From: Actinomycetota bacterium
GTDB lineage: Bacteria > Actinomycetota > Coriobacteriia > Anaerosomatales > Anaerosomataceae
Length of the DNA: 64,000 nt
Reading direction: 5' to 3'
NCBI GenBank assembly: GCA_004348925.1
Contig: RCMX01000001.1
Span: 257,649 to 321,648 of the forward strand
In this document: positions 38,577 through 47,352 of the stretch, one piece after another
Position numbering within the stretch: the stretch's first letter is position 1
Layout of the letters: each line of letters opens with the position of its first letter
Made by a program: the position numbers and the translations under genes
Notes under the pieces: model-generated
Told to the model about the DNA's origin: nothing
The model's database searches: none
What the model saw: the letters and a program-made list of their open reading frames with translations, nothing else

Positions 38577-39803
38577 CTACCCCGCGATACAGGAGTCGCT
38601 CGGCTTCAGGAAGCGTCCGGCGACGCCGAGCGCCACCGCCGAGACGAGCATGAGCGCGGCGCTTAGGAAGAACGGTGAGCTGTGTCCGACGGTGTCCCAC
38701 AGGATGCCCGCCACCGCGCTTGAAGGCAGCGCGGCCAAGCCGAGGACGAACGTGTAGCTTCCCACGGCCGTGCCCCGGCAATCGGGGCCGACGAGGTCGA
38801 CCACGAACGCCCGCGCCATCCCCTCGGTCATCGCGTACGGGACGCCGTAGGCGGCGAAGAGCAGCCACGGCGCCCACGACTGCGAGGCAAGGGCGAAACC
38901 CGCGTAGACCACGCCGTAGAGCGCGAAGCCCACGGTGAGCATCCGGCGGCGACCCAGGCGGTCCGAAAGGATACCGGCGGGCGTTGCCACGAGCGCGCCA
39001 ACGATGTTGAAGACGAAGTACATGAGCGGCACAATCGGCGTGGCCGTGCCCAGGTCTTTCGCACGCAGGATCAGCATCGCGTCAGACGAGTTCCCCAGCG
39101 CGAAGACCGCCGAGATCGCGGTGAAGACGCCGAACGGCACCCCGAGGTGCTTGAAGCCGAGCGGTGGCCGCGTGCCGGCCGTCTGCTGCGGCCGTCGCTC
39201 GCGAACCGCGAGGAGCAGCACAATGACCGCCGCCGTCCCTGGAATCGCCGAGATGAGGAACACCGTGCGGAACCCGGCCGCGCCGTGCACGAGCGAGAGC
39301 GTCGCCCACGCCACGAGCGGCCCGATCGCAGCCCCGAGCGTGTCGAGCGCGCGGTGGAGCCCGAACGCCTTGCCTCGCACCTCCGGCGGCGCTGAGTCCG
39401 CGATGAGCGCGTCTCTCGGCGCGGTGCGGATGCCCTTGCCGAAGCGGTCGGCGAACCGCACCGCGAGGACCGCCGGCCAGTTCCCGGCGATCGCGAGCAC
39501 CGGCTTCATGAGGTTCGAGAGCCCATAACCCACCAGGATGAGCGGCCTGCGTCGGCCGACGCGGTCGGAGAGCCATCCCGAGAAGACTTTCATGAGCGAC
39601 GATGTCGCCTCGGCGATGGACTCGATGACGCCGATGACCGCCACGGGCGTGCCGAGCACGCTGGAGAGGAAGAGCGGGAGGATCGGGTAGATGGCCTCCG
39701 AGGAGGCGTCGGTGAGCAAGCTCACGATGCCGAGCGCCTTCACGTTGCGGAGCGACGTATCTGGCGCGGGCTCGGCGGTGGGCGTCACGGGCTCTTCGGG
39801 CAT
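38577..39803 (-). CDS. Major facilitator superfamily transporter
   Basis: 408 residues from ATG at 39801-39803 (GAGGAGGAACGC as SD); the frame open to 39869 would run over the promoter. Twelve membrane segments. The MFS motif between TM2 and TM3 is GWLSDRVGRRRPLILVG and recurs as GILSDRLGRRRMLTVG in the second half, reflecting the two-fold repeat. FADRFGKGIRTAPRDALIAD is characteristic of a subgroup of predicted drug or sugar efflux MFS proteins seen in anaerobes. The substrate is unknown. Divergent from the P-type ATPase gene, so a shared metal response is possible but not shown. Confidence 0.88.
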   Translation of the reverse strand: MPEEPVTPTAEPAPDTSLRNVKALGIVSLLTDASSEAIYPILPLFLSSVLGTPVAVIGVIESIAEATSSLMKVFSGWLSDRVGRRRPLILVGYGLSNLMKPVLAIAGNWPAVLAVRFADRFGKGIRTAPRDALIADSAPPEVRGKAFGLHRALDTLGAAIGPLVAWATLSLVHGAAGFRTVFLISAIPGTAAVIVLLLAVRERRPQQTAGTRPPLGFKHLGVPFGVFTAISAVFALGNSSDAMLILRAKDLGTATPIVPLMYFVFNIVGALVATPAGILSDRLGRRRMLTVGFALYGVVYAGFALASQSWAPWLLFAAYGVPYAMTEGMARAFVVDLVGPDCRGTAVGSYTFVLGLAALPSSAVAGILWDTVGHSSPFFLSAALMLVSAVALGVAGRFLKPSDSCIAG

Positions 39804-39876: not shown

Positions 39877-42234
39877 ATGACTCCAACGGCTAGAGAGACG
39901 TTCCAGCTGCAAGCGCTTCTGCCCGCGCCGTACTACTGCCTGGGCTGCGCGTCGCGTGTGTGCGACGCCGTGCGCGGGGTCGCTGGCGTCACAGAGGCGC
40001 ACTGTGCTGCCGAGGAAGGTGCGCTCGACGTCACCTACGATCCGCTCGCGATCGATGCCGAGGAGCTTGCCGCGCGCGTGCGCGAACTCGCGCTCTCGAT
40101 CACGGGCGCCGTGGGGCACGCAGTCTTTCGGCTCACCGGCCTCGATTGACCTGACTGCGCACGCGCCGTGGGCGCGTCGGTGGCCGGGGTCGAGGGCGTG
40201 TTCTCGGCCGACGTGAACTTCGCGAGCGGACTTCTCACCTTCGAATACGACGCAGCGGTGGACCCGCGCGAGACGGTCGCGACCCTTGTGCGCGGCACCG
40301 GTCACGGCGTGGAGTCGCTCGGCGAGGCCGCGGGCGGGGAGGCGCCGCCGCAGACGTGGTGGCAGCGCAACCGCACGACCGCCGCGATGGCCGCAAGCGG
40401 GCAGCTCATCGCGACCGGCTGGGCGCTTGGCGTGGTCGGAGCGCCGGAGATCGCCTCAACGGTGCTCTACGCGCTCGCGATCGTGGCGGGCGGCCTCATC
40501 ACCTGGCGACGTGCCTGGGTGTCGCTCAAGGCGCGCATGCTCGACATGAACGTGCTCATGACGATCGCGGTCATCGGCGCCGCCGCCATCGGGGAGTGGC
40601 AAGAAGGCGCAACCGTCATCTTCCTGTTCGCGCTCGGCGGCTGGCTCGAGTCGCGCTCGCTCGAGCGCACGCGCCGTTCCATCCGCGACCTGCTCGCCTT
40701 CGAGCCGGAGCTCGCGCGCGTCGTGCGCGCCGGAGCCGAGGTGCTCGTGCCGCCTGCCGAGGTGCTCCTCGGCGAGACGCTCGTCGTGCGGCCGGGTGAG
40801 CGCGTCGCACTCGACGGCATCATCGCAGTCGGCGCCTCCGCGCTCGACGAAGCGCCCATCACCGGCGAGTCGGTGCCCGTCGACAAGGCCGAGGGCGACC
40901 GCGTCTTCGCTGGTTCGCTCAACACGAGCGGTCTCTTGCAGGTGGAGGTGACCGCGCTTGCGGCGGACTCCACGCTCTCGCGCATCATCTTCCTGGTGGA
41001 GGAGGCGCAGGCCGCCAAGGCGCCCGCGCAGCAGCTCGTCGACCGCTTCTCGCGCCTGTACACGCCCATCGTCGTGTGGCTTGCTGCGGGCATCGCGACC
41101 GTCCCGCCGATTGCAGCCTGGGTGCTCGGCGCCGAGTGGGGCAGCTTTGCGTCGTGGCTCTACCGCGCGCTCGTGCTGCTCGTCATCAGCTGTCCGTGCG
41201 CGCTCGTGATCTCCACGCCCGTGGCGATCGTCTCGGCCATCACGCGTGCGTCGCGCGACGGCGTGCTCGTGAAGGGCGGGGCGTTCCTTGAGGTCGCGGC
41301 CAAGGTGCGCGCGATCGCGTTCGACAAGACCGGCACGCTCACGCACGGCCGCCCCGCCGTCGTGGAGGTCGTTGCCGAGAACCACCACGAGTTCCTTGCG
41401 CTTGCCGCATCGCTTGAGGCGAACTCGAACCACCCGCTCGCACGTGCGGTCGTCGCATACGCGGAGCGCGAGGGGATCGCAACGCTTGCGGTCTCGGGCT
41501 TCGAGGAGCTGCCAGGTCGCGGCGTGGGTGCGATGATCGCGAATCGCCATATCCGCCTCGTGAGTCCCGCTTTCGCTGCCGAGATCGGTGACGTCCGCGA
41601 GCCGCTCGCGTCGCGCATCACGCTTGCCGAGGAGGCCGGGCGCACCGTGCTCGTGCTGCTCGATGAGGGCCTGCCGCTCGGCTATATCGCCGTGGCTGAT
41701 GAAGTGCGCGCAACGGCCGCGAGCGTGATGGGCGCGCTTCGCTCGGCTGGCATGCAGCATCTCGTGATGCTCACGGGCGACAACGAACGCACCGCGGCTG
41801 CCATCGCGGCCGATGCCGGTCTCACCGAGAGCCGCGCGCGGCTGCTCCCGGGCGACAAGACCACCGCGATCGTCGAGCTGCGCGAGCGCTACGGCGCCGT
41901 CGCGATGATCGGCGACGGCGTGAACGACGCGCCTGCACTTGCGGCCGCCGACCTCGGCATCGCGATGGGCGCGGCCGGGAGCGACACGGCGGTGGAGACG
42001 GCGGATGTGGCGCTCATGCGCGATGATCTCTCGGCGTTGCCGGGCTTCTTCGACCTGGGTCGCCGTACGGTCGCGAACATCCGCCAGAACGTGGCGCTCT
42101 CCATCGTGGTGAAGCTTGCCGTGCTCGTGCTGGCGGTCTTCGGCAGGGCCACGCTGTGGATGGCGGTCTTCGCCGATACCGGCGTGGCGCTCATCGTCAT
42201 AGCGAACGGACTGCGGCTGCTCAAGAAGCGGTAG
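39877..42234 (+). CDS. Heavy-metal P1B-type ATPase with probable selenocysteine at residue 91 (in-frame TGA)
   Basis: One frame runs from ATG 39877 to the stop at 42232-42234, interrupted only by TGA 40147-40149. Before the TGA lies a heavy-metal-associated (HMA) domain with CLGC (YYCLGCASRVCDAVRGVAGV). The TGA sits in GLD-TGA-PDCARAVGASVAGV, exactly at the first Cys of the CxxC of a second HMA domain, giving U91-P-D-C94. After it come the normal P1B parts: the CPC membrane motif (SCPCALVISTP, Cys439 and Cys441), phosphorylation Asp483 (DKTGTLTHG) and GDGVNDAPAL. CPC with ALVISTP resembles the Zn/Cd/Pb exporters ZntA and CadA. A hairpin right after the TGA fits a bacterial SECIS element. Alternatives are a nonsense mutation from TGC or a sequence error, with translation restarting at GTG 40168. 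Confidence 0.78.
40147..40177 (+). promoter_or_regulatory. UGA codon and SECIS-like hairpin
   Basis: TGA at 40147-40149 is followed by ACGCGCC (40161-40167), loop GTG (40168-40170), GGCGCGT (40171-40177): a perfect 7-bp stem whose loop starts 18 nt after the TGA. Bacterial SECIS elements have a small apical loop with a G in the first two positions at 16-37 nt, so the placement fits. High GC makes chance hairpins common, so this alone is weak evidence. Confidence 0.5.
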
Positions 42235-42239
42235 CGCGG

Positions 42240-42620
42240 CTAGAACATCCGCCCGACGACCACGCCGAGCGCGACGGCCGCAAGCCCGATGAGCCCGCTG
42301 CCGAACATGTTCGCCACGCCCGCGACGGTGCTTCCCTCGGCTATGAGGGTAATGCTCTCGTAGGAGAGCGTGGAAAACGTGGTGAACCCGCCAAGGATCC
42401 CCGAGCCGAGGAAGAGCCGCCACGACAGGCTCACGCCGCCGCGTCCCAGTGAGACCGCCATCAGCACGCCGAGGAGGAACGCGCCGCCGGCGTTGATGAC
42501 GAGCGTGTGCCACGGGAACGACGTGCCCCAGCGGTCTGTGAGCCATCCGCCGAGCAGATACCGGGCCCCGGCACCGAGCGCGCCGCCGAGCGCCACCAAT
42601 AACAGGTGTGTCATCTTCAT
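42240..42620 (-). CDS. crcB: Fluoride channel CrcB/Fluc
   Basis: 126 residues from ATG at 42618-42620; a longer minus-strand frame running back to 43430 is antisense to the next genes. Four membrane segments and the Fluc signatures are visible: GGALGAGARYLLGGW, FPWHTLVINAGGAFLLG (the Asn of the pore) and GILGGFTTFSTLSYE (the central TTFST stretch with the bound sodium). It forms a dual-topology dimer exporting fluoride. Only one copy is present, as expected of a homodimer. A -10 TACACT (plus-strand 42628-42633) lies seven bases before the ATG, so the transcript is probably leaderless and carries no fluoride riboswitch. Confidence 0.92.
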   Translation of the reverse strand: MKMTHLLLVALGGALGAGARYLLGGWLTDRWGTSFPWHTLVINAGGAFLLGVLMAVSLGRGGVSLSWRLFLGSGILGGFTTFSTLSYESITLIAEGSTVAGVANMFGSGLIGLAAVALGVVVGRMF

Positions 42621-42710
42621 AGGGGGCAGTGTAGCGTAAACCTCGGATAGGGACGGGACCGACGCGGTCGGGTTCCGTGGGATGACGGCGAACGATGGGG
42701 GAGATGCCCG

Positions 42711-44426: not shown

Positions 44427-45251
44427 TCAGCTGGGCTGGGGGTTCTGCTCGGCAGCGGTGAGCAGGTCGTTCATGCTGCCCGAGCGGTACCCTTCCAGGT
44501 CCTGTGCTGCAAACGCGAAGCCAGCGGCCTTGATGGCCTCGGAAACCTGATCGCGCAGCGTCCAGGCGCGCTCCATCTCCTCGGGATCGACCTCGAGGCG
44601 GGCGACGTCGCCGTGCGAGCGGACGCGGAACTGTCGCAGCCCAAGCGCCCGCAGGCCTGCCTCGGCGTTACGAACGCGATCGAGACCCTCGTCGGTGATG
44701 GGCACGCCGTACGGGAACCTGCTGGCGAGGCACGCCATCGAGGGCTTCTCCCAGGTGGGGAGGTCGAGCATCTGCGAGAGTTCGCGGATCTCGTCCTTGT
44801 GCAGGCCCACCTCAAGAAGCGGGCTCACGACGCCGTACTCGATCGCGGCCTTGCGACCAGGACGGTGGTCGGAGACGTCGTCCGCATTCGTGCCATCGAG
44901 CACCCACTTGATGCCGCGCGTTTGCGCGACGGCGCGGAACAGCCCGAACATCTCGGACTTGCAGTAGTAGCAGCGGTCCGGCGGATTCACCAGGAAGCGC
45001 GGATCCGAGAGCTCGTAGGTGTCGACCTCGTAGAGCCTGAAGCCGAGCAGCGCCGCGGTCTTACGTGCATCCTCAACCTCATTGGCGGTGTGGACATCGG
45101 AGGTGGCCAGTACCGCAAGGCAGTTATCGCCGAGAACCGCGTGCGCCGCGAACGCCACGAGGGTAGAGTCGACGCCCCCGGAGTACGCGACGAGCGCGCT
45201 GCCGAGGTTCGCGAGGCGATTCCTGAGACTGTCGTATTTGCGGGCGAGCAC
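44427..45251 (-). CDS. larE: LarE-type ATP-dependent sacrificial sulfur transferase
   Basis: 274 residues from GTG at 45249-45251, preceded by AGGGGGACCT as SD; the open frame continues upstream but without protein-like sequence. The PP-loop LVAYSGGVDSTLVAFAA binds ATP. The family features DRCYYCKSEMF and PSMACLASRFPYG are present, the latter containing the Cys that donates its sulfur in the sacrificial type. LarE converts the carboxylates of a pyridinium nucleotide to thiocarboxylates for the nickel pincer cofactor of lactate racemase and related enzymes. No larA, larB or larC is in the window. Divergent from acs. Confidence 0.85.
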   Translation of the reverse strand: MLARKYDSLRNRLANLGSALVAYSGGVDSTLVAFAAHAVLGDNCLAVLATSDVHTANEVEDARKTAALLGFRLYEVDTYELSDPRFLVNPPDRCYYCKSEMFGLFRAVAQTRGIKWVLDGTNADDVSDHRPGRKAAIEYGVVSPLLEVGLHKDEIRELSQMLDLPTWEKPSMACLASRFPYGVPITDEGLDRVRNAEAGLRALGLRQFRVRSHGDVARLEVDPEEMERAWTLRDQVSEAIKAAGFAFAAQDLEGYRSGSMNDLLTAAEQNPQPS

Positions 45252-45363
45252 AGGTCCCCCTGACCGTGCGGGGCGAGGTACCGTCCATCCTGCCACGTCC
45301 GACGCGAGCTTTGTAGGGGCTGAACGGGAAAAGACCCAGTAAGCCGACGAACGGAGGTTACGT

Positions 45364-47352
45364 ATGCCCGATGAGCAGCAGGACCACGGCATAGAGAGGC
45401 TGAGCGGCGAGGGAGCGGTGGTGCAGCCGCAACCGGAGTTCGCCGAGCACGCTGTCATCGGTGGGCGAGACGCGTATCTGGAGCTCTACAAGCGCTCACT
45501 CGATGACCCCGACGGCTTCTGGGGAGACATGGCCCGCGAGAAGCTTGCGTGGATGACGCCGTTTACGCAGGTGCGCTCGGGCGGGTTCGACGACCTCGAC
45601 TACACCTGGTTTGCCGGGGGCACGCTCAACGTGAGCGCGAACTGCCTCGATCGCCATCTCGATACCTGGCGGCGGAACAAGGCGGCGCTCATCTGGGAGG
45701 GTGATGACGGCTCGTCTCGGACGTTCACGTACCAGCAGCTGCACTACGAGGTCTCCAAGTTCGCCAACGTCCTCAAGAAGAAGGGCATCGAGCGCGGTGA
45801 CCGCGTCGCCATCTACCTGCCGATGATCCCAGAGCTTCCCATCGCGATGCTCGCCTGCGCACGCATCGGCGCCATCCACTCGGTGGTGTTCGGGGGGTTC
45901 TCGGCTAGCGCGCTTCGGGAGCGCATCCAGGACTGCGGAGCGAAGCTCCTCATCACCTCGGACGAAGGCATCCGGGGCGGCCGCAAGGTTCCGCTGAAAG
46001 CGGCAGCCGACGAGGCGCTCTTCGAGTGTCCCAGCGTTGAGGCGTGCGTGGTCGTGAAGCGCGGCGCAGGCGACGTGGACATGGAGCCGGGACGCGATAC
46101 CTGGTGGCACCAGGAGATCAGCGCGCCCGAGGTCCGCAAGCCCTGCGCGCCGGTGCCGATGGATGCCGAGGACCCGCTCTTCATCCTGTACACGTCGGGT
46201 TCCACCGGTAAGCCGAAAGGCGTGCTCCACACGACGGCGGGCTACCTGCTCTACACGTCACTCACGTTCAAGACGGTCATGGACTACCGCGACGAGGACG
46301 TGTACTGGTGCACCGCCGATATCGGCTGGGTCACCGGCCACAGCTACATCGTCTACGGCCCGCTTGCCGAGGGTGCCACCTCGCTCATGTTCGAAGGTGT
46401 GCCCACGTACCCGGACCCGGGCCGGTTCTGGGCGGTCGTGGAGAAGTACCGCGTGAACATCTTCTACACCGCGCCGACGGCGATCCGGGCGCTCATGCGT
46501 CACGGAGCCGGCTGGCCGCAGCGCTATGACGTTTCGTCGATTCGGTTGCTCGGCACGGTAGGCGAGCCGATCAACCCCGAGGTCTGGAGCTGGTACCGCG
46601 ACACCATCGGACGCAGCGAGGTGCCGATTGTCGACACGTACTGGCAGACCGAGACCGGCGGCTTCCTCATCACGCCGTTCCCGGGTGCTACGCCGCTCAA
46701 GCCCGGGTCTGCGAGCTGGCCGTTCTTCGGCATCGAGCCCGAGGTCCTGCGTGAGGACGGCAGTCGGGCCGAGCCGGGCGAGGGCGGCTACCTCACCGTG
46801 AAGCGGCCGTGGCCGGGCATGCTGCGCGGCACCTGGGGTGACCCGGAGCGCAAGCGCATGCGCGAGGTGTACTTCGAGCGGTTCCCCGGGCGGTACTTCA
46901 CCGGTGACGGTGCGCGCGTGGACGCCGATGGTGACTTCTGGCTCCTCGGCCGCGTGGACGACGTCATCAACGTGAGCGGTCACCGCCTCGGCACCGCCGA
47001 GATCGAGAGTGCGCTCGTGAGCCACGACGCCGTCAGCGAGGCGGCCGTCGTCGGCTTCCCGCATCCGGTGAAAGGCGAGGGCATTCACGCATACGTCATC
47101 CTGCGGGACGGACAGGTGGCAAGCGACGACCTCGCGAAGATCCTCTCGGGACATGTACGCAAGCTCATCGGACCCATCGCGAAGCCCGACGTCATACAGT
47201 TCGCGCGTGACCTCCCCAAGACGCGCTCCGGCAAGATCATGCGACGCATTCTGCGCAAGATCGCGGCGGGAGAGCGCGAGATGGAGGCATTCGGCGACAT
47301 CTCCACGCTGCAGGATCCGAAGGTCGTGAAGGATCTGCTGGCAGGCGTCTAG
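45364..47352 (+). CDS. acs: Acetyl-CoA synthetase (AMP-forming)
   Basis: 662 residues, full length; ATG 45364 with ACGGAGG upstream. ANL-superfamily motifs: [18 protein letters not shown] (ATP loop), [13 protein letters not shown] (A5), [20 protein letters not shown] (A8 hinge) and [11 protein letters not shown], whose Lys is the acetylation-regulated catalytic residue. It activates acetate to acetyl-adenylate and then acetyl-CoA. No protein acetyltransferase is next to it. The stop codon is shared with the convergent glnD gene (CTAG 47349-47352). Confidence 0.96.

Follow-up and report, generated by a model that had tools for sequence, protein, structure and literature searches.

Within the window (the whole 64,000-nucleotide stretch of DNA that was analysed) we identified a forward-strand gene (39877..42234) for a predicted P1B-type ATPase of the Zn/Cd/Pb class, with 785 amino acids if the TGA at 40147 is read as selenocysteine (Sec). 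In translation, the frame opens with ATG at 39877, passes a single in-frame TGA at 40147-40149 (codon 91) and closes with TAG at 42232-42234. Re-reading it thus bore out the original prediction of two frames in the same phase parted by one TGA (start 39877, end 42234). From genes of this kind a plain ORF caller makes a short HMA protein and a headless ATPase, as in the mechanical ORF list for this window. A codon-composition scan of both strands over the whole window identified one case of a TGA flanked on both sides by coding-like sequence, and this is codon 91. The adjoining genes, both on the reverse strand, encode an MFS transporter (38577-39803) and crcB (42240-42641). No metal regulator was found directly beside the pump gene, and these neighbours are uninformative on the metal transported.

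The protein begins with two HMA domains. The first (39937..40089, +; PF00403 at C2:297585-297737, 25.7 bits against a cut-off of 24.8) is of the Cys form (PYYCLGCASRVC) and has an ordinary CxxC motif (PYYCLGC). The second (40126..40305, +; PF00403 at C2:297774-297953, 32.8 bits) has one TGA inside and is of the Sec form (GLD-U-PDCA). Here the TGA, in the context FRLTGLD-TGA-PDCARAVG, occupies the position of the first Cys of the DCxxC motif. Its placement in an HMA metal-binding motif had been recognised correctly before, but the upstream Cys-form domain had been overlooked. Further along the forward strand are the E1-E2 ATPase domain, with the actuator and membrane part (40702..41256; PF00122, residues 276-460), the CPC membrane metal-binding motif (41191..41199; residues 439-441), the phosphorylation and nucleotide-binding domain of the HAD hydrolase type (41305..41952; PF00702, residues 477-692), which carries the DKTGT, HP and GDGVNDAP motifs, and the membrane residues Lys746 and Asp767 (42112..42177).

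The general model for P1B-type heavy-metal ATPases (TIGR01525) is reached with 582.5 bits (cut-off 346), and the DKTGT, CPC, HP and GDGxNDAP motifs are present. The model for the P1B-2 (Zn/Cd/Pb) class (TIGR01512) is passed with 508 bits (cut-off 313.5), and the copper model TIGR01511 is missed (376.5 bits, cut-off 397). In the alignment to ZntA (chain 4umv), D58 corresponds to D90, C59 to U91, C62 to C94, K693 to K746 and D714 to D767, and the CPC motifs coincide. The ZntA equivalog models are far from reached (NF008262, 565.9 bits against 1005; NF033775, 494.7 bits against 1240). Because of these scores and aligned residues, assignment to the Zn/Cd/Pb (P1B-2) class, but not to the ZntA equivalogs, is supported at the level of sequence, in agreement with the kind of metal originally proposed.

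We searched 61 genomes (this genome and 60 relatives) with the window protein and identified the pump in 45 of them. At the aligned codon 91 there is TGA in 32 and Cys in 13, and in the orthologues read TGA alternates solely with Cys codons. That close relatives would keep the TGA and other orthologues have Cys had been anticipated, and the counts agree with this. Comparison with the nearest species gave dN/dS of 0.18 upstream and 0.05 downstream of the TGA for one genome (G004), and 0.25 and 0.10 for another (G002). The nearest named public records are metagenome assemblies of Coriobacteriia/Anaerosomatales. Sec at the same residue was also identified in Alkaliphilus transvaalensis (an isolate), Thermincola ferriacetica, the HGW-Firmicutes-14 assembly and an Aquicultor-like genome (L172). 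In a tree built from the ATPase core, the distribution of Sec requires at least nine changes, at least five of them on well-supported branches. Given these changes and the TGA in the Alkaliphilus, Thermincola and Aquicultor-like pumps, we conclude that the swap between Sec and Cys at the HMA ligand has occurred repeatedly, also within the order.

The number of HMA domains varies among these pumps. The Aquicultor-like pump (G095, from another Actinomycetota lineage) has one Sec HMA domain (GLDUPDC) and one Cys HMA domain (GLDCPDC). Several Cys orthologues (L052, L053, L057, L061, L062 and L064) have an extra Cys HMA domain, with two GLDCPDC-type sites, compared with the Sec forms. This looks like a trade-off between the number of HMA domains and the use of Sec. 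Another Cys orthologue (L063; G049 C48) has a TAA inside the matched stretch.

A SECIS-like hairpin (40161..40177, +; ACGCGCC-GTG-GGCGCGT) of 7 bp begins at the 12th base downstream of the TGA; it has a GUG apical loop at 40168-40170 and a folding energy of -11.2 kcal/mol. A published bSECIS model allows a loop of 3-9 nt, a stem of 4-16 bp, G in the first two loop positions, a spacing of 16-37 nt and a minimum free energy of at most -7.5 (PMC13188914). With 18 nt between UGA and loop, the hairpin lies within all of these limits, so the earlier report of a 7-bp hairpin with a GTG loop at a permitted place, 12 bases after the TGA, is upheld. Owing to the high GC content of the DNA, total folding energy failed to tell Sec and Cys forms apart, and shuffled versions of the 51-nt stretch fold with much the same stability as the native sequence. 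We dropped this measure as a discriminator and used a position-specific stem test instead (6 bp or more, stem start at +11 to +13, loop at +17 to +20, a G early in the loop). Such a stem is present in 29/31 distinct Sec sequences versus 1/13 Cys sequences, counts to be read with the provisos that the test window was picked after inspection of the folds and that the Sec sequences are related to one another. A synonymous null (100 draws of protein-preserving codon resampling) gave a mean of 4.0/31 and a maximum of 9/31. The Sec forms use two stem registers, both from +12, and the stems of window-type pumps show pair changes on both sides (12-28, A-T/T-A; 16-24, G-C/A-T). In Alkaliphilus transvaalensis the Sec copy has a hairpin after the TGA, and none is seen in the Cys copy from the related Anaerovirgula.

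Genes for Sec incorporation had been named as something to look for, and all are present. The genome encodes selA (612 bits), selB (378 bits) and the tRNA-Sec gene (selC, anticodon TCA), which form a cluster with selD on contig C6. The selD gene (L177, about 4306) itself has an in-frame TGA at the usual Sec place (SG-U-AAK), and is followed by genes for a 119-aa protein, selA and selB. In two TGA-carrying genomes (G013 and G017) selA, selB and selC were not found. Both retain selD with an in-frame TGA, 2-4 kb from a contig end; thus an assembly gap is likely, and we set these genomes aside as counterexamples. Whether a genome carries selA does not tell which form of the pump it has, Sec or Cys, as most genomes with the Cys form also have selA.

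A PF00403 profile search of the genome identified 11 HMA matches, two of them with a TGA inside. The second belongs to another pump (C1:338947-341019), about 48% identical to the window pump, which reads GIT-U-LDCA at the same site and adjoins a gene for an ArsR/SmtB metalloregulator. The Sec site is TGA in all 14 of the 14 copies of this second pump, from 12 genomes; one genome (G009) has Cys in its window-type pump and Sec in its second pump. A separate hairpin, with a GAGAA loop, occurs in the second pump, and there one pair (15-33, C-G/G-C) is changed on both sides. In two genomes of different genera the second Sec pump lies in tandem with an HMA-less pump (L083 and L084; G002 C92 and G021 C14), and the cassettes are 99.94% identical over 5,056 nt; the cassette is 96-98% identical to those of two further genomes (L081 and L082). 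Such identity across genera suggests that either a selenoprotein cassette for metal resistance was recently transferred horizontally or the bins are contaminated. Near both Sec pumps is a larE-like PP-loop gene, named by eye from its protein (window, 44427-45458, reverse strand; L074, 7034-7930, forward strand), which may be coincidence.

Could the TGA be a true stop? The locus would then encode a 90-aa HMA protein and an ATPase restarting at GTG 40168, where the mechanical ORF begins, and free HMA proteins and HMA-less pumps do occur in these genomes. Alternatively, the stop would be a recent nonsense mutation or a sequencing error. However, the HMA domain runs across the TGA, and the codon is kept in 32 genomes and exchanged only for Cys codons in the orthologues read; we therefore reject two separate genes. 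TGA in 32/45 related pumps with Cys in 13/45 likewise rules out mutation or error. The dN/dS values below 1 on both sides also argue against a true stop, as do the 9/30 Sec forms that have no upstream HMA domain to release, and we regard this explanation as very improbable. Reading of the TGA as Trp or another amino acid, via an altered code or a suppressor, would account for the open frame and for nothing more. Only one TGA in the window lies inside coding-like sequence, with no scatter of such codons through genes, the alternative residue at codon 91 is Cys, and the genome has a tRNA-Sec gene whose anticodon is TCA; an altered code is thus the least credible of the explanations considered, with almost nothing to commend it.

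Two further possibilities accept Sec at codon 91. Most known selenocysteines serve redox chemistry, and since UxxC is a classic redox pair, metal binding is not the sole possible role here. Sec91 could mainly be a redox switch, in which a selenenyl-sulfide bridge between Sec91 and Cys94 shuts the HMA site when oxidised and opens it when reduced, and the metal is held on ordinary thiols. The lineage uses Sec, the first HMA domain retains its Cys pair, and UxxC is a common redox-type motif in catalogued selenoproteins (PMC13188914). Against this, the motif is an HMA metal ligand with the ZntA-type Asp conserved alongside, Sec occurs at this ligand in several separate pumps, and a thioredoxin-like partner is neither fused nor adjacent. 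We consider a mainly redox role unlikely, though clearly the strongest of the competing ideas. The UGA might also act as a selenium-dependent switch, so that the full pump is made when selenium suffices, its Sec HMA domain gripping very soft metals, and the first HMA domain is released as a free 90-aa metal chaperone or sponge when selenium is scarce. The upstream HMA domain is present in 21/30 Sec forms; such release is only speculative because the remaining 9/30 and the second pump do not fit, and we find the idea rather improbable.

The reading we prefer, with a probability of roughly 0.78, is that UGA 91 in this P1B-2 pump specifies Sec in the D-C-x-x-C site of the second HMA domain, where a selenolate/thiolate pair would capture a soft metal. 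In other words, a zinc/cadmium-type export pump very probably carries selenocysteine at one of the positions that take hold of the metal, as judged from sequence. The codon, its conservation, the exchange of Sec and Cys, the hairpin and the machinery can all be seen in the sequence. We infer that living cells decode UGA as Sec, by SelA, SelB and SelC with the hairpin beginning 12 nt downstream of it. The host would be an anaerobic member of the Coriobacteriia (Anaerosomatales-type) and the pump would export soft divalent metals (Zn/Cd/Pb, perhaps Hg). Selenol and thiolate at the cytosolic Asp90-Sec91-Cys94 site most probably capture the soft metal ion, which could then either be passed to the CPC site or be sensed there to regulate the pump. 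At neutral pH selenols are in the ionised state, and their affinity for Hg, Cd and Pb exceeds that of thiols. Stronger binding of soft metals could help in sulphide-rich anoxic habitats. Selenium at a metal ligand in a transporter domain seems to have been gained several times and apparently lost again within one order, and the matched Sec and Cys pumps of related species form a natural comparison set for the contribution of selenium to metal capture.

ZntA (4umv), a P1B-2 pump for Zn/Cd/Pb, ranks first among the relatives of solved structure. The two are collinear over residues 83-785 (E 2e-118), with counterparts of the CPC motif, Lys693, Asp714 and the DCxxC motif. The window pump differs in its Sec in place of Cys59, its additional upstream HMA domain and its large distance from the ZntA equivalog cut-offs. 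The NCBIfam family NF041115 (metal-binding (seleno)protein) is a small HMA-related family that weakly matches the first HMA domain (38 bits, short of the 95-bit cut-off). Its members differ in being free proteins with UxxU rather than pump domains with UxxC. In E. coli, frameshifting in copA yields a free HMA copper chaperone. One paper reports ribosomal frameshifting in bacterial copA (PMC9548414). The likeness is that the first HMA domain would be freed wherever decoding at a recoding site behind it is incomplete, but frameshifting is a recoding event other than UGA/Sec. Since 9/30 Sec forms have no upstream HMA domain, a chaperone by-product cannot account for the codon in general.

A Sec-containing HMA pump has already been predicted in another bacterium, and is represented in catalogues by a single example accession. 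We liken it to the window pump by family and motif alone: both match the TIGR01525 family model, have a UxxC motif and are predictions from sequence. A review calls for more work on what such Sec residues do in metal detoxification. The pumps described here go beyond the catalogued one in belonging to Actinomycetota, in their two-HMA architecture and in their presence in dozens of species. What is added to the known prediction is the distribution across an order, with alternation of Sec and Cys inside it, two paralogous Sec pumps within one genome, repeated origin, and SECIS statistics that quantify the contrast between Sec and Cys forms.
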